From contig PGXV01000011.1 in NCBI GenBank assembly GCA_002839315.1, positions 62,001 to 126,000 on the forward strand: a DNA stretch of 64,000 bases. The letters run 5' to 3'. The notes under the pieces were generated by a model, which was not told the origin of the DNA, did no database searches, and saw only the letters and a list, made by a program, of their open reading frames with translations. How positions within the stretch are numbered: the stretch's first letter is position 1; each line of letters begins with the position of its first letter. Of this stretch, positions 18,752 through 25,212 are shown one piece after another. The DNA comes from Spirochaetae bacterium HGW-Spirochaetae-3. GTDB taxonomy: Bacteria > Spirochaetota > Spirochaetia > Treponematales > UBA12059. Position numbers and translations under genes: made by a program.

Positions 18752-19651
18752 TTAAGCTCCGGCGGAGAGAGCGGCGTCGATACGCGGGTCGTGGAAAAGC
18801 TTCGCGTACTTACGGGCGGTAAGCCCCAGTTTGTCCGCGATATCAGGATCGGCGCCGCCTGACAGTAGCGCTTCGACGATATCCGCGTCGCTCCGACCTA
18901 CCGCCAGCACGATCGCCGTCTGTCCGTCCTTGCTCTGGAGGTCGGTATTGGCGCCTTTATCCAGGAGATAACGGAGTAATCGCCCGTCACCCTGCTGAGC
19001 CGCGTCCATAAGCGGCGAATAGCCGCGGTCGTCGCTCTGGACGTCGATGTCGGCGCCGTGTTCGAGTAGTAGCTCGACGATGCTGAGGTGCTTATGCCTA
19101 GCGGCGAGGCATAGCATCGGAACGCCGGTCTTTTCCCTGATATCGGGCGGGAAACCGGATTCGATGAACAGCTCGGCGGCCTTGGTATCGCCGTCGCGGA
19201 CGCATTGAGCGAACGACTCGGCGTGCCACGAGATGCCGAGTTCGAGGAGCGCGGACTTCGCCTGGCGTCGTTTTTCCTTGACTTCCCATTCCTCGCCTTC
19301 ACCGAGATAATACTCGGCCACAGCGTTCAAGTCGGGAAAAACCCTGAGATCGTCTATCCATCCCAGGGGCTCGATGCCCGGGTCGAGCAGGTACAACGCC
19401 AAGGGCATCGACCTGCCGCGGGCCAATCCGACGATGTAGGCGAACCACGCGGACTCGGAATCCTGCCTGTCCAGTATACAGAGCGCATGAGAAGCACCGC
19501 CGAGAATAGTATCGAACCGGGAGTGCGTCTCGATTCGCCATCGGTCATTGAATTTCAGGCCGATGCTTTCATAGCCTTCGGCCTCGAGACGCAACATCGC
19601 GCTTCGAGCCGGAGAGACGTTCCTGGGTGAAACCATTACAGCGATCTTCAA
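18752..19651 (-). CDS. ankyrin-repeat protein with TIR-like N-terminal domain
   Basis: Protein of 299 residues. The C-terminal half (about 150-299) holds four ankyrin repeats with GADIDVQSDDRGYSPLMDAAQQGD and GANTDLQSKDGQTAIVLAVGRSD as the clearest. The N-terminal ~115 residues have an alpha/beta pattern with a segment ASHALCILDRQDSESAWF, which resembles the S-x-W region of TIR domains but lacks the catalytic Glu expected four residues after the Trp. A signalling or scaffold role is more likely than NAD cleavage. The start is a TTG with a good AGAGG ribosome site 6 bases upstream. No signal peptide. Identity of the N-terminal domain is uncertain. Confidence 0.82.
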   Translation of the reverse strand: MKIAVMVSPRNVSPARSAMLRLEAEGYESIGLKFNDRWRIETHSRFDTILGGASHALCILDRQDSESAWFAYIVGLARGRSMPLALYLLDPGIEPLGWIDDLRVFPDLNAVAEYYLGEGEEWEVKEKRRQAKSALLELGISWHAESFAQCVRDGDTKAAELFIESGFPPDIREKTGVPMLCLAARHKHLSIVELLLEHGADIDVQSDDRGYSPLMDAAQQGDGRLLRYLLDKGANTDLQSKDGQTAIVLAVGRSDADIVEALLSGGADPDIADKLGLTARKYAKLFHDPRIDAALSAGA

Positions 19652-19737
19652 GGTTTTCCTCTATTCGAAGGATCGGCATTTTTGCGAGCAGTAGTTAAAT
19701 CTAGCGTGTTTTGCTTACTATGATAACTATAACCTCA

Positions 19738-19766
19738 TTGACGTTATTAGAGTAATTGGATATAGT
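19738..19766 (+). promoter_or_regulatory. promoter of the small transcript before azlC
   Basis: TTGACG at 19738-19743 and TATAGT at 19761-19766 with a 17-base spacer; predicted start near 19773. Confidence 0.7.
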
Positions 19767-19772
19767 GCGAGT

Positions 19773-19887
19773 AAGTCAGACAAACATGATCACCTTCAAC
19801 GCTTTTCACGCATTTTTGCATCAGGTGATCAGTTAGTATATAGAGCTTCCGGGATTTTCTCCTCCTTGCCCGGAAGTTCTTTTTTTG
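19773..19887 (+). ncRNA. candidate small RNA or leader with 16-codon ORF and terminator
   Basis: A self-contained unit of about 115 bases lies between a good promoter and an intrinsic terminator. It contains a perfect 9-base inverted repeat TGATCACCT (19787-19795) / AGGTGATCA (19823-19831) and, over the same bases, a short ORF at 19786-19836 encoding MITFNAFHAFLHQVIS. The terminator follows 10 bases after the ORF stop. This is either a ribosome-dependent attenuator for azlCD or an independent small RNA/small protein gene; a separate promoter for azlC further down favours the second. Confidence 0.5.
19846..19887 (+). terminator. intrinsic terminator before azlC
   Basis: CTTCCGGG and CCCGGAAG form an 8-base stem with a 15-base loop, followed by TTCTTTTTTT. 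No complete plus-strand gene lies upstream, so it must end the small transcript starting near 19773. Confidence 0.8.
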
Positions 19888-19903
19888 GATAAAATCCTCG
19901 ACC

Positions 19904-19932
19904 TTGTCCGTCCTCCCCGCCCTCGATATAGT
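19904..19932 (+). promoter_or_regulatory. promoter directly at azlC
   Basis: TTGTCC at 19904-19909, 17 bases, TATAGT at 19927-19932; the azlC GTG follows 6 bases later without a ribosome site. Confidence 0.5.
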
Positions 19933-19938
19933 ATCTTC

Positions 19939-20685
19939 GTGAAAGATCAATCCAGTCCGAACACCAAGCGCTCCGTTCTCGGCGCCGCTTTCAAGGCGGG
20001 CATCCCCGTATTGCTCGGTTACTCGAGCATAGGATTCGCGTTCGGACTCGTGCTGGTCGGATCCGGCTTGCCCTGGTGGCTGTCGCCGCTGATGGCCGTA
20101 ATCGTATACGCCGGAGCGGCCCAGTTCATGGGAGCCGGCCTGCTCGCCGCGGGATCGGGCGTCATCGAAATAGCCATACTCACCCTGCTGATGAATGCGC
20201 GCCATGCCGTATACGGTCTTTCCGTGCTGGATAAGTACGCGGCGGCGGGACGCCGGAAGCCGTACCTCGTATTCGGCCTGACCGACGAGACCTATGGCCT
20301 GATAACGACGATGGAACCGCCGCCCGGCGTCGATATGACCGATTTCTACGTCGCGCTCACCGCGATGAATCAGTGCTGGTGGGTACTCGGCTGTACCGCG
20401 GGAGCGCTGTTCGGCAAGGCACTGCCCTTCGATACGACCGGCCTCGATTTCGCGATGACGGCGCTGTTCGTCGTGCTGCTCGTCGAGCAGACCAAGGCGA
20501 TACGTCGGCCGGAGCCATACCTAGCGGCGATTACGGCGTCGGCGCTGGCGTACGCGATCGTGGGTTCGGGCAATTTCATCCTCGTGGCCACGGCCCTGAC
20601 CTGCGGCTTCCTACTGATCGTCCGCGACCGCCTGGAGCGCGGAGGCCCCCCTTCCGGTACGGCGGGTCAGGAGGCTCTCCCATGA
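19939..20685 (+). CDS. azlC: AzlC family branched-chain amino acid exporter subunit
   Basis: Large membrane subunit (248 residues) of a two-part exporter of branched-chain amino acids and analogues. It has the conserved GIPVLLGYSSIGFAFGLVLV start and MNARHAVYGLS motif of the family. I chose the GTG at 19939; the open frame extends to a TTG inside the terminator T-run, which is unlikely. No ribosome site precedes the GTG, and a TATAGT ends 6 bases upstream, so the mRNA may be leaderless. The stop overlaps azlD by four bases. Confidence 0.88.
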   Translation: MKDQSSPNTKRSVLGAAFKAGIPVLLGYSSIGFAFGLVLVGSGLPWWLSPLMAVIVYAGAAQFMGAGLLAAGSGVIEIAILTLLMNARHAVYGLSVLDKYAAAGRRKPYLVFGLTDETYGLITTMEPPPGVDMTDFYVALTAMNQCWWVLGCTAGALFGKALPFDTTGLDFAMTALFVVLLVEQTKAIRRPEPYLAAITASALAYAIVGSGNFILVATALTCGFLLIVRDRLERGGPPSGTAGQEALP

Positions 20686-20999
20686 CGCGCTTGTTCCTTA
20701 CCGTCGCCGCGATGGCCCTGGTGACTATCCTGACGAGGGCCGCGCCTTTCATCTTCTTCTCCAAGCGCAAGCCGCCCGCCGCGCTCGACTATCTCCAGGC
20801 TTACCTGCCCCCGGCGCTTATGACGATCCTCGTACTGTCCGCCTTCAAGGACACGCGTTGGGTTGACTCTCCCCACGGGATTCCGGCCCTGGCCGGGGCC
20901 GTCGTTACGGCGGCGCTGCACCTGTGGCGGCGCAACGTACTGCTTTCGATCGCCTGCGGTACGGCAGTCTATATGGTACTGTCGCGTATCATCGCCTAG
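20682..20999 (+). CDS. azlD: AzlD family branched-chain amino acid exporter subunit
   Basis: Small membrane subunit of 105 residues with four hydrophobic segments and the family patterns VTILTRAAPFIFF and YLPPALMTILVL. The ATG overlaps the azlC stop (ATGA), so the two subunits are made together. Confidence 0.9.
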   Translation: MTRLFLTVAAMALVTILTRAAPFIFFSKRKPPAALDYLQAYLPPALMTILVLSAFKDTRWVDSPHGIPALAGAVVTAALHLWRRNVLLSIACGTAVYMVLSRIIA

Positions 21000-21025
21000 A
21001 GTCGGATAATTCTACGCGCAGATAC

Positions 21026-21055
21026 TTGACGAACGTCCAAGAAATATCGGATAGT
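21026..21055 (+). promoter_or_regulatory. promoter of metNIQ
   Basis: TTGACG at 21026-21031, 18 bases, GATAGT at 21050-21055. Predicted start near 21062, just at the ribosome site of the upstream ORF. Confidence 0.6.
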
Positions 21056-21073
21056 CCGTCCAGAGGACACATC

Positions 21074-21121
21074 ATGAAAGACTCTGAGAACCCCCTATGT
21101 TTCATGCGGAGCGGCCGCTAA
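21074..21121 (+). CDS. upstream ORF (15 residues) overlapping the metN start
   Basis: ATG with a strong AGAGGA ribosome site 7 bases upstream encodes MKDSENPLCFMRSGR. It overlaps the metN start (21097) in another frame, and metN itself has only a weak site, so metN translation is probably coupled to this ORF. The final codons and the following bases form a stem GAGCGGCC-GCTAAA-GGCCGCTC (21110-21131) covering the uORF stop. Adjacent Cys, Phe and Met codons make it a plausible sensor of sulfur amino acid supply. This is inferred. Confidence 0.5.
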   Translation: MKDSENPLCFMRSGR

Positions 21122-22194
21122 AGGCCGCTCTCCCGACTTCACACCCTTCAATCGACGACAAGACAATACAAGCCGCCTCGTTACCCGGATCGAAGCTCGA
21201 GCTCCGTTCGCTGACCAAGTCGTTCGGCGGCAAGGCGGTCGTACGAGACGCGAGCATCTCGGTGCGGCCCGGCGCCGTATACGGCGTGATAGGCCGCTCC
21301 GGCGCCGGCAAGTCGACGCTACTCCGCATGGCGGCGCTGCTCGAAACGCCTGATACCGGCATCGCGCTATATGGCGGGTCGCCCGTATCCGGCCTCGCCG
21401 GTCGAGCGCTCCTGCTCGCCCGCAGGCGCGCGGGCGTCGTCTTCCAGTCGTTCAACCTGTTCGGCTCGAGAACCGCGGCGGGCAACGTCGCGTTCCCGCT
21501 GGAGGCCGCTGGCGCGCCGAAAGCCGCGGCGCGCGAGCGAGTCGCGATGCTGCTCGACCTCGTAGGCCTCGCCGACAAGGCAGATAAACCCGTCGGGCGC
21601 TTCTCGGGCGGCGAGAAGCAACGAGTCGCGATAGCGAGGGCCCTGGCCAACGAACCGGAGATCCTGTTCTGCGACGAGGCGACGAGCGCCCTCGACCCGG
21701 AGACGACGCGGTCGGTACTCGATCTCCTCCTGTCGATACGGGACCGACTCGGCCTGACCGTGCTGATGGTCACCCATCAGATGGAGGTCGTCAGGCGCGT
21801 CTGCGACGAGGTAGCCGTGATGGACGCGGGCCGGATAGTCGAGACGGGCACGGTGGAAAGCCTCTTCGCGTCGCCGCGGACCAAGGCCGCCAAGCGCCTG
21901 GTCGCCGATCTCCTGCCCCTCGAGGCGGAAGAACTGGAAGACGACCCCGTATGCAGGCTCAGGTTCGCGGGAAAGTCGGCGTCGCAGCCGGTACTGTCAA
22001 GGCTTTCACGCGAGTTCCCCGTCGAGGTCAACATACTGCGAGGCACCATACACGAGGCCGGGGGCTCCCGCTTCGGAGAGCTCGTGGTCACGTTCCAGGG
22101 CGAGGACGCGGCGATAGCCGCCGCGAAGGACTGGCTTAAGTCGCAAGGCGTAGCCGCCGAATCGGCGGTAACCGGGGAGGCCTACCATGCTTGA
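21097..22194 (+). CDS. metN: methionine ABC transporter ATP-binding protein
   Basis: ATPase of the methionine importer, 365 residues. Walker A GRSGAGKS, signature FSGGEKQR and Walker B ILFCDEATSALD are intact. The C-terminal ~80 residues form the NIL domain (VEVNILRGTIHEAGGSRFGELVVTFQG), which in MetN binds methionine and inhibits transport. The N-terminus is ~20 residues longer than usual; the only available start is the ATG within the uORF. Overlaps metI by 8 bases. Confidence 0.92.
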   Translation: MFHAERPLKAALPTSHPSIDDKTIQAASLPGSKLELRSLTKSFGGKAVVRDASISVRPGAVYGVIGRSGAGKSTLLRMAALLETPDTGIALYGGSPVSGLAGRALLLARRRAGVVFQSFNLFGSRTAAGNVAFPLEAAGAPKAAARERVAMLLDLVGLADKADKPVGRFSGGEKQRVAIARALANEPEILFCDEATSALDPETTRSVLDLLLSIRDRLGLTVLMVTHQMEVVRRVCDEVAVMDAGRIVETGTVESLFASPRTKAAKRLVADLLPLEAEELEDDPVCRLRFAGKSASQPVLSRLSREFPVEVNILRGTIHEAGGSRFGELVVTFQGEDAAIAAAKDWLKSQGVAAESAVTGEAYHA

Positions 22195-22840
22195 CCTACT
22201 CGACCTGCTCGCCCGACCGACGATAGAGACTATAGCGATGGTCGCAGCCTCGACGCTCGCGGCCGTCCTCTTGGGGGCTCCCGTCGGTCTGCTCCTGTAC
22301 CTGATAGCGCCGGGCGGCCTGTCGGAGCGGCCGACGCTTCGCCGCGTGCTGGACAGGGCCGTAAACGCGCTCCGCTCGTTCCCGTTCATCATACTCATGA
22401 TCATGCTGTTCCCTCTGTCCAGGCTCGTCGTCGGGACGAGCATAGGCACCGCGGCGGCCGTCGTTCCGTTGGCGATAGCGGCGGCCCCCTTCGTCGCCCG
22501 CGTCGTAGAATCGGCGCTTTCGGAGATAGACCGGGGCGTCGTGGACGCGGCGGTTTCCTCAGGAGCGAGCAAGGCGCGCATCGCGTTCGCGATCCTGCTG
22601 CCCGAGGCCATGCCGTCGCTCGTATCCGGCCTCTCGCTCACCGTGATCAACCTGATCGGCTACTCGGCCATGGCCGGGGCCATCGGCGGCGGCGGCCTCG
22701 GAGACCTCGCGGTCCGGTTCGGCTATCACCGCTTCCGTATCGACGTGATGGTCGCCGCGGTACTCGTCATACTCGTCCTCGTCGAGGGAACGCAAGCCGC
22801 GGGTAACGCGGTCGTCCGCAGGATCAAGTCCATGCGATAG
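22187..22840 (+). CDS. metI: methionine ABC transporter permease
   Basis: Membrane component of 217 residues, the normal length for MetI, with five hydrophobic segments and the coupling loop AAVSSGASKARIAFAILLPEAMPSLVSG followed by GYSAMAGAIGGGGLGDLA. Starts inside the end of metN. Confidence 0.92.
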   Translation: MLDLLDLLARPTIETIAMVAASTLAAVLLGAPVGLLLYLIAPGGLSERPTLRRVLDRAVNALRSFPFIILMIMLFPLSRLVVGTSIGTAAAVVPLAIAAAPFVARVVESALSEIDRGVVDAAVSSGASKARIAFAILLPEAMPSLVSGLSLTVINLIGYSAMAGAIGGGGLGDLAVRFGYHRFRIDVMVAAVLVILVLVEGTQAAGNAVVRRIKSMR

Positions 22841-22955
22841 CCGGCGGATAACGGACCGGCCAGGCGCCGGTACCCTCTTCCGTCGGCTCCCACATTCTCC
22901 ACAGTCCCTTTTCGGCGCTCGTAGAGCGACCGCGACTCATCGTAAGGAGGTTCCC

Positions 22956-23744
22956 ATGAACCGTAAGGCCCTAGCTCTATCAGTACTGTCGCTCGCCGCG
23001 ACGCTTTCCTTCGCTCAGGCACCGCAGCGGGTACTCAAGGTCGGGGCGACGCCCGTTCCCCACGCCGAATTGCTCCGGCTTATAGAACCGGATCTCGCCG
23101 CCCAAGGCATCAGGCTCGAGCTGGTGGAATTCACCGACTACGTGACGCCGAACATAGCGCTCGCCGAAGGCCAGCTCGACGCGAATTTCTTTCAGCACGT
23201 CCCCTACCTGGAGTCGTTCTCGGCTGAGCGGAGGCTGGCGCTCGAGGTAGCCGGCATCATCCACGTCGAGCCGTTGGGCGTATACTCCAAGAAGTACCGG
23301 TCGCTCGCGGAATTGCCGAAGGGCGCGACGATAGCGATCCCGAACGACCCGACAAACGAGGGCCGAGCATTACTGCTCCTCGCGGCCGAGGGCCTCATAA
23401 CCCTCAAGCCGGAAGCCGGGCTCAAGGCCACGCTGCGAGATATCGCCGATAATCCGAGGAAGTTCAAGTTCCGCGAGCTCGAGGCGGCGCAGTTGCCGCG
23501 AACCCTGTCCGACGTCGCCGCTTCGGTTATCAACGGCAACTACGCGATTCCCGCCGGGCTCAACCCCGTCAAGGACGCCATAGCCCTCGAAGGCGCCGAG
23601 TCTCCGTACGCCAACGTGGTCGCCGTACGGAGGGGCGAGGCTTCCGACCCGCGCATCGTCGCCCTCGTCGCCGCGCTCCGTTCCCCGAAGGTCAAGGAAT
23701 ATATACTGGCTACCTACGGCGGAGGCGTGGTTCCCGCGTTCTAA
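22956..23744 (+). CDS. metQ: methionine-binding protein, NlpA/MetQ family
   Basis: Periplasmic binding protein of 262 residues for the MetNI importer. Family landmarks include VGATPVPHAELL, FTDYVTPNIAL, DANFFQHVPYL and IPNDPTNEGRALLLL. Unlike most homologues it has no lipobox cysteine: the signal peptide ends in a signal peptidase I site (SFAQA), so it should be a soluble periplasmic protein. It has its own strong AAGGAGG site and is separated from metI by 115 bases. Confidence 0.93.
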   Translation: MNRKALALSVLSLAATLSFAQAPQRVLKVGATPVPHAELLRLIEPDLAAQGIRLELVEFTDYVTPNIALAEGQLDANFFQHVPYLESFSAERRLALEVAGIIHVEPLGVYSKKYRSLAELPKGATIAIPNDPTNEGRALLLLAAEGLITLKPEAGLKATLRDIADNPRKFKFRELEAAQLPRTLSDVAASVINGNYAIPAGLNPVKDAIALEGAESPYANVVAVRRGEASDPRIVALVAALRSPKVKEYILATYGGGVVPAF

Positions 23745-23761
23745 CGATAGACCCGTATCCA

Positions 23762-23790
23762 AGGCGCCCCTGACGGGGGCGCCTCTTCTT
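23762..23790 (+). terminator. intrinsic terminator after metQ
   Basis: AGGCGCCCC and GGGGCGCCT form a 9-base stem with a 5-base loop, followed by the short T-rich tail CTTCTT. The tail overlaps the -35 of the next promoter. Confidence 0.75.
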
Positions 23791-23831
23791 GACTAATACC
23801 GATTCCTTTAGTAGACTATTTTGGTCTATTA
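23789..23831 (+). promoter_or_regulatory. promoter and palindromic operator of the Rrf2 gene
   Basis: TTGACT at 23789-23794 and TAGACT at 23812-23817 with 17 bases between. The -10 lies inside an inverted repeat TAGTAGAC-N7-GTCTATTA (23809-23831, 7 of 8 pairs). The size and place fit an autoregulatory Rrf2-family operator. Confidence 0.7.
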
Positions 23832-23841
23832 AGGATGGTAT

Positions 23842-24264
23842 ATGAGTTTGATAACGACCAGATCCAGGTATGGCCTCAGGCTGCTGATAGAGCTAGCCGA
23901 TCGGGCAGGCTCCGCGCCAATCGACCTGGGCAGCGTAGCGAGGAACCAGGATATACCGGAGCTATACCTGTCTAAGCTGGCCGCGACGCTCAAGGCCGCG
24001 GGCGTGCTGCGCTCCGAGCGCGGAGCCAAGGGCGGATACAGGCTAGCCCGCCGCCCGGAGGACATTTCGATCCTGAGCGTCGTGGAGGCACTGGAGGGAC
24101 GGTCGTCCCTCCTCGAGTGTACCGACGACCCGGCGATTTGCGCCAGGTCGGGAGAATGCAGGACCCTACCCGTCTGGTCGGGTCTCGATAAGGCCATCAA
24201 TGACTACCTGCGCGGCGTCAGCCTCGCGGACGCCGCGGTCGCGGTGATAGATTATTCCATATAG
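23842..24264 (+). CDS. Rrf2 family regulator with Fe-S-type cysteines
   Basis: Winged-helix regulator of 140 residues (N-terminal LLIELAD... PELYLSKLAATLKAAGVLRSERGAKGGYRL). Cys93, Cys100 and Cys106 are spaced like the 2Fe-2S ligands of IscR, so it may sense Fe-S or redox status. It is followed by cysK at 10 bases, as CymR-type regulators are linked functionally with CysK in Bacillus, although CymR itself lacks the cluster. Both readings fit: control of cysteine synthesis by an Rrf2 repressor that also controls its own gene. Confidence 0.9.
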   Translation: MSLITTRSRYGLRLLIELADRAGSAPIDLGSVARNQDIPELYLSKLAATLKAAGVLRSERGAKGGYRLARRPEDISILSVVEALEGRSSLLECTDDPAICARSGECRTLPVWSGLDKAINDYLRGVSLADAAVAVIDYSI

Positions 24265-24273
24265 GAGAACACG

Positions 24274-25212
24274 ATGAAGTACGCCGAAAAGATAACCGAC
24301 CTGATTGGCAACACCCCGCTCGTTCGGGTTCGCGCGGATGGCGCGGCGCCCGGAGCCGTCGTGCTCGCCAAGGTCGAATCGTTCAACCCGTTCTCGAGCA
24401 TCAAGGACCGGATCGGCCTCGCGATGATAGAGTCCGCGGAGGCGTCCGGCGCGCTCAAGAAGGGCGCCGTCATCGTCGAGCCGACGTCGGGGAATACCGG
24501 CGTCGCGCTGGCGGCCGTCGCCGCGGCGAAGGGCTACCGCATCGTATTGACGATGCCCGAGACGATGAGCATCGAGCGCCGCAAGCTGCTCGCGGCCTAC
24601 GGCGCCGAGATCGTGCTGACCGAAGGCCCTCTAGGCATGAAGGGCGCGATCGCCAAGGCCCGCGAAATCGTCGCGTCGACGCCGGGCGCGTATATGCCGA
24701 TGCAGTTCGACAACCCGGCGAACCCGGCCATGCACGCGAAGACGACGGCCGAGGAGGTATGGAAGGACACCGAAGGCAAGGTCGACGTCCTCGTAGCCGG
24801 AGTCGGCACGGGCGGTACCGTCACGGGCATAGCGAAGGCCATCAAGGCGCGAAAACCTTCTTTCAAGGCGATAGCCGTGGAGCCTGACGGTTCCCCGGTA
24901 CTATCGGGAGGCAGCGCCGGCCCGCACAAGATCCAGGGCATAGGCGCGGGTTTCGTGCCCGGAGTATACGACGCATCCCTGATAGACGAAGTGATACGGG
25001 CGACGCACGACGACGCCGGCGCTACGGCCCGCCGCCTCGCCAGGGAAGAAGGGCTGCTCGTAGGCATATCGTCGGGAGCGGCGCTATGGGCGGCCCTCGA
25101 GGTCGCGAGGCGACCGGAGAGCGCCGGTAAGGTCATCGTCGCCATCCTTCCGGACTCCGGCGAGCGGTACCTGTCGACATGGCTCTTCGACGAACCCTCC
25201 GCGGCTAAATAG
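24274..25212 (+). CDS. cysK: cysteine synthase (O-acetylserine sulfhydrylase)
   Basis: PLP enzyme of 312 residues making cysteine from O-acetylserine and sulfide. The PLP lysine is Lys44 (SSIKDR), the asparagine/phosphate loops are [11 protein letters not shown] and [10 protein letters not shown], and the [10 protein letters not shown] and GISSGAA segments are present. ATG after an AGGAGA site, 10 bases behind the Rrf2 gene. Cofactor PLP can be supplied by the pdxST pair at 28-29.8 kb. Confidence 0.95.

Follow-up and report, generated by a model that had tools for sequence, protein, structure and literature searches.

The window analysed here, a stretch of 64,000 nucleotides from Spirochaetae bacterium HGW-Spirochaetae-3, carries a compact unit between a divergent ankyrin-repeat gene (18752-19651, minus strand; Pfam Ank) and azlC (19939-20685, plus strand; Pfam AzlC, 7e-40). 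The question raised by this unit is whether it serves azlCD as a leader, encodes a short peptide, or is a small-RNA gene in its own right. An earlier note described a promoter, a miniature open reading frame (ORF), an inverted repeat, and a terminator within ~115 bases, and allowed for all three interpretations. That anatomy agrees base for base with the sequence reading, and the length is borne out by a predicted RNA of ~114 nt. As to interpretation, the separate small RNA has gained from conservation, compensatory changes, and an order-wide set of similar units, and both the azlCD attenuator and the peptide gene have been set aside. The content of the terminator loop, CCUCCUU, was absent from the note. 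The favoured reading, held with somewhat better than even confidence, is that 19738-19886 is a free-standing small-RNA gene, the product of which would mask Shine-Dalgarno sequences in trans through its loop, independently of Hfq.

Anatomy and orthologues of the unit

The unit begins with a sigma-70-type promoter (19738-19766, plus strand; TTGACG-17-TATAGT) that by direct reading equals the consensus at 10 of 12 positions and has TAGAG..ATTGGA in its spacer; the hexamers and the spacer motif are also present in four orthologues and in units of other families. Promoter-like sites were found by consensus scan at 6 per 2.5 kb, compared with 0.9 expected from shuffles. The sequence ACTATGATAACTATAAC (19712-19735), immediately 5' of this promoter, is a possible UP element or repressor site. 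Based on the fold, the orthologues, and a covariance model, the small RNA is predicted to start at about 19773 and to extend to 19886 on the plus strand. The minimum-energy fold (117 nt as folded) consists of two hairpins at -34.8 kcal/mol, while dinucleotide shuffles have a mean of -21.6 (sd 3.15; z = -4.2) and none of 200 is equally stable.

The 3' hairpin is an intrinsic terminator (19842-19886, plus strand) with a 12-bp stem (19842-19853 with 19869-19880) and a 15-nt loop, ATTTTCTCCTCCTTG (19854-19868), followed by seven T residues (19880-19886); it was missed by the consensus scan because the scan takes loops of 3-8 only. The 5' hairpin, helix P1 (19787-19831, plus strand), is an inverted repeat perfect over 9 bp, with the arms TGATCACCT (19787-19795) and AGGTGATCA (19823-19831), an extension (AAC at 19783-19785, GTT at 19832-19834), and a sequence-variable apical region between the arms. 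The likeness of the 5' arm (GAUCACCU) to the tail of 16S rRNA was taken as chance, the arm being replaced in orthologues. A scan of Rfam matched the unit to no known riboswitch, leader, or small RNA, and matches listed to E = 10 comprise only RAGATH-8, on the opposite strand at E = 0.17, which was judged spurious.

DNA and protein searches identified orthologues in four congeneric genomes (L022, L023, L004, and L005), and a divergent ankyrin-repeat gene is the neighbour in all five orthologous loci. The covariance model built from these five units (R1) gives 109 bits for the window and 110-125 bits for the orthologues. The unit was not matched in three further genomes of the genus (G001, G002, and G005), two of which are less than 90% complete. 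Among the five orthologues, 6 of the 12 pairs that make up P1 with its extension have changed on both sides. In the whole structure, 90.8% of cells are paired as compared to 31-50% with partners slid, and the covariation score is equalled in 2 of 500 shuffles. These figures lean towards the structure, to which the alignment had been fitted, and the sequences are few (n = 5).

Relation to azlC and the short open reading frame

A transcription attenuator of azlCD, with read-through controlled by a ligand or by translation of the ORF, is very unlikely. The unit does lie upstream of azlC, in the same orientation, in four of the five genomes (the window, L022, L023, and L004), and other classes of unit likewise precede constant genes. 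However, the second promoter that the earlier note placed at azlC is present (19904-19932, plus strand; TTGTCC-17-TATAGT), ends 6 nt before the start codon, and is kept in L022, L023, and L004. Across the azlC-linked genomes it reads TTGYYY-17-TATAGT, and the start codon falls where transcription would begin. Both this promoter and the 6-nt distance to ATG or GTG are conserved, which suggests that the azlC mRNA is made independently of the unit and is leaderless; in the window, the position of the -10 element indicates a transcript probably leaderless from GTG. Genome G007 has the complete unit (L005) with cysK after it, and this cysK has its own promoter-like sequence (TTGATT-17-TATTTT); the divergent ankyrin gene is still at the left and azlCD is not between unit and cysK, and therefore the unit persists without adjoining azlCD. 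Units elsewhere that match this one in promoter spacer and terminator loop precede an acyl-CoA synthetase gene, or are followed by a gene that appears, when read by eye, to be convergent (L114 and L122), and the latter units therefore cannot be leaders of that gene. Both hairpins are common to the minimum-energy and centroid folds, and an alternative antiterminator fold was not observed. By sequence only, no dependence of the downstream gene on read-through is apparent. Comparison of the genomes thus shows a unit independent of azlCD, with its predicted structure and its loop conserved.

By Pfam, the genes around the unit encode AzlC, AzlD, an NlpA-type lipoprotein, Rrf2, and the divergent ankyrin-repeat protein, and azlCD, transporter genes, and rrf2 lie between the unit and cysK in the window. 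The region after azlCD (20682-25212) resembles a locus for sulphur amino acids, as it has cysK, the gene of an Rrf2-family regulator, and ABC-transporter genes with an NlpA-type lipoprotein. The NIF3-family genes directly 3' of units L107, L109, L117, L123, and L128 have a -10-like TATACT or TATAGT ~6-8 nt before ATG, as at azlC, which raises the possibility that leaderless mRNAs are widespread in the order.

The 16-codon ORF, MITFNAFHAFLHQVIS (19786-19836 including the stop, plus strand), is judged to be accidental, and a short-peptide gene is scarcely credible. ORFs of 15-16 codons with the same starting place are present in L023 and L005; however, AGG replaces ATG in L004 and L022, and this loss of the start in two of five orthologues was the reason for rejecting the peptide reading. 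No Shine-Dalgarno sequence precedes the ORF, the start codon falls inside helix P1, and the frames among orthologues have different ends and no common length. Letters common to the peptides follow from the conservation of the helix and loop. A conserved leader peptide rich in the regulating amino acid, as expected of amino-acid attenuators, was likewise not found among the five, the composition not being kept. When peptide and structure were compared across the orthologues, as the earlier note had proposed, the pairing of P1 was kept and the peptide drifted.

An anti-Shine-Dalgarno loop across the order

The terminator loop contains the motif CTCCTCCTT (19859-19867, plus strand), with CCTCCTT at 19861-19867. 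CCUCCUU is the anti-Shine-Dalgarno stretch at the 3' end of 16S rRNA, the sequence by which the ribosome recognizes mRNA. CCTCCTT is present in the loops of all five orthologues, as ACCTCCTT in four and as CTCCTCCTT in the window. Of 39 genomes searched for GGCTGGATCACCTCCTT, 7 contain it; in the others the 16S end is probably either not assembled or different just upstream. The unit has sequence features expected of trans-acting small RNAs with an anti-Shine-Dalgarno loop: an own promoter, an intrinsic terminator, and a conserved, unpaired anti-Shine-Dalgarno motif.

Beyond the genus, the covariance model matches many places in other families at no more than 45 bits, and nearly all of those inspected have the same loop. 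The fall from 109-125 bits led to the rejection of these matches as homologues of the whole RNA; they share not sequence but the terminator with the loop it carries and, in family f5, a 5' helix as well. As the loop is favoured by the model, an independent pattern (CCGG-N3-12-CCTCCTT-N1-5-CCGG-N7-TTTT) was searched for together with a control in which the heptamer was reversed. The pattern is present in 81 of the 244 genomes of the order, the reversed heptamer in 8 of 244 (in 3 of these, the same hairpin also has CCTCCTT), and the pattern read backwards gives 4 sites; on this basis, enrichment of the loop as an artefact of the model was rejected. In the phylum sample, the hairpin pattern occurs outside the order in four genomes only. 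A second pattern, based on the stem of family f3, has matches in 10 genomes. The units were located by their loop, so that units with altered loops would escape; MAFFT misregisters stems of unequal length, and the hairpins were compared without one joint model.

Classes of unit are defined by the 5' domain and the neighbouring gene, and between classes the stems differ and the loop is constant. Class A, in the genus of the window, has ankyrin/azlC or cysK neighbours. Class B (families f1, f4, and f5) lies upstream of rex, class C (f4) upstream of DUF34/NIF3, and class D (16 loci, in f5 and, as L118, in f2) upstream of a gene for an AMP-binding acyl-CoA synthetase, mostly with its own promoter. 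The genome of the window contains a class B copy (L132; G000:C16:214602-214713, minus strand), which is a second such unit there and precedes a rex-like regulator gene. A further group in f1, f3, and f4 has GTAACC-type promoters that are ECF-like rather than sigma-70 (L171-L180 in f3; L183-L188 in f1 and f4), and some of these units precede a gene starting MA(A/Q)xSKNxRT. Of 60 units, 42 are preceded by a promoter that agrees with the consensus at 9 or more of 12 positions, compared to 31 of 686 control windows, and the 5' domains of all 22 units tested are more stable than the shuffle mean (z -0.7 to -4.6). The same loop thus recurs in predicted promoter-driven units across the order. In four families, promoter spacers carry (T/A)(A/G)GAG...ATTGGA at a near-constant place (19742-19760 in the window; L102-L105, L110, L114, L118, L122, L130, and L160), and the (T/A)(A/G)GAG part is found in class A, in the class D-like L130 and L160, and in L110, L114, L118, and L122. 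Rfam scans matched none of the order-wide units and no description of the set was found in the literature searched; the set is apparently undescribed.

If the unit were a stray promoter next to a terminator or insulator, then its RNA would be transcription noise with no function in trans; this is quite unlikely, as the loop is kept across families while the stems change, promoters are strongly enriched, and P1 has compensatory changes. The loop could also mimic the 16S 3' tail to bind a protein, such as Era, a ribosome maturation factor, or an RNase acting on this tail, in which case the RNA would be a decoy tuning ribosome assembly or overall translation. The near-invariant loop of f5 contains UCACCUCCUUU, which is 16S tail beyond the Shine-Dalgarno complement, and in copying more of the tail than Shine-Dalgarno pairing needs it could thus serve as a decoy; the occurrence of one motif in many RNAs with differing stems also fits. 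Such a role is nevertheless unlikely: the loop in the window (CUCCUCCUU) diverges from the tail but retains complementarity to Shine-Dalgarno sequences, and there is no known protein partner.

Proposed action and comparison with known small RNAs

For the masking of Shine-Dalgarno sequences in trans, the proposed sequence of events is as follows. RNA polymerase with sigma-70 would make the ~114-nt RNA with two hairpins, of which the 5' hairpin, P1, drifts in sequence and retains its pairing; the 15-nt loop of the 3' terminator would expose CUCCUCCUU, including the anti-Shine-Dalgarno portion of the 3' end of 16S rRNA. By pairing in trans with the purine-rich Shine-Dalgarno sequences that mRNAs carry, the loop would block binding of the 30S subunit and lower translation, with no need for Hfq; P1 and the terminator stem would shield the RNA and keep the loop open. 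In this scheme, transcription of the small RNA, its pairing with mRNAs, its targets, and an inducing signal are inferred.

Hfq (PF17209) gave no match above cut-off either in the genome of the window or in 58 relatives, with positive controls, although a highly divergent Hfq could escape this search. The result for these 59 genomes of the order fits an RNA protected by its structure and not an Hfq-dependent small RNA, for which Hfq would be encoded in the genome. A pattern search of the own genome with the complement of the whole loop gave no match with fewer than two mismatches other than the loop itself, and nine sites with two mismatches compared with five for the reversed control; a single long target complementary to the whole loop was rejected, as none is clearly above chance there. 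Against the masking of Shine-Dalgarno sequences, a 7-nt seed matches very many of them. Against action in trans only, the constant 3' neighbours in several classes (acyl-CoA synthetase, rex, and NIF3) also fit a cis role, which is possible in those classes.

To our knowledge, little is known of spirochaete small RNAs outside Borrelia, and the order studied here includes Treponema-like bacteria. The order-wide units can be recognized by one rule, namely a promoter, a 5' helix, and a terminator with an RCCUCCUU loop. A broader proposal, which is tentative and somewhat doubtful, is that this order, with no recognizable Hfq, has small RNAs in which unrelated 5' domains and sigma-70 or ECF-like GTAACC promoters are joined to one interchangeable effector terminator that copies the 16S tail. 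Such a modular arrangement would connect many signals to one translational output, by masking of Shine-Dalgarno sequences or by a 16S-tail decoy. Were the loop a shared silencing module behind many promoters, it would show how a small-RNA network can be built from one seed without Hfq, and the question would become how an RNA with complementarity to almost all strong Shine-Dalgarno sequences selects its targets.

By kind, the design is a variant of a known one and not a new principle. Judged by analogy, the small RNA most likely works like αr14/NfeR1, LhrC, or RepG and is related to none of them; loops that mask Shine-Dalgarno sequences have precedents in NfeR1 (PMC10746234) and LhrC (PMC4132741). 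NfeR1/αr14 of alpha-proteobacteria has an identical anti-Shine-Dalgarno motif in loops on differing stems, and acts in trans independently of Hfq (PMC10746234). The unit resembles it in having the motif in a hairpin loop, differing stems, and expression predicted to be promoter-driven; however, αr14/NfeR1 has three hairpins each with CCUCCUCCC, whereas the unit in the window has one motif, in the terminator loop only, of its two hairpins, has no sequence or Rfam match to it, and belongs to another phylum. LhrC of Listeria is 111-114 nt long, is present in several copies, can dispense with Hfq, and pairs with the Shine-Dalgarno region through a CU-rich motif in its terminator loop (PMC4132741). 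RNA length and the CU-rich terminator loop are alike, but LhrC has redundant CU-rich sites in loop A, the linker, and the terminator loop, while in the unit the terminator loop alone is conserved; the near-identical LhrC copies are under LisRK, and no homology to the spirochaete units was found. RoxS/RsaE of Firmicutes uses C-rich regions for pairing with G-rich sites in its targets, and RoxS is under Rex control (PMC5419742); class B units, with one copy in the window's genome, are encoded next to rex, but RoxS/RsaE has no homology to the spirochaete units. RepG of Helicobacter pylori acts in trans with the C/U-rich terminator loop alone as its seed (PMC8295292), and the unit has a similar C/U-rich terminator loop; RepG, however, is a single RNA whose pairing partner is a homopolymeric G repeat within a 5' UTR and not Shine-Dalgarno sequences generally.
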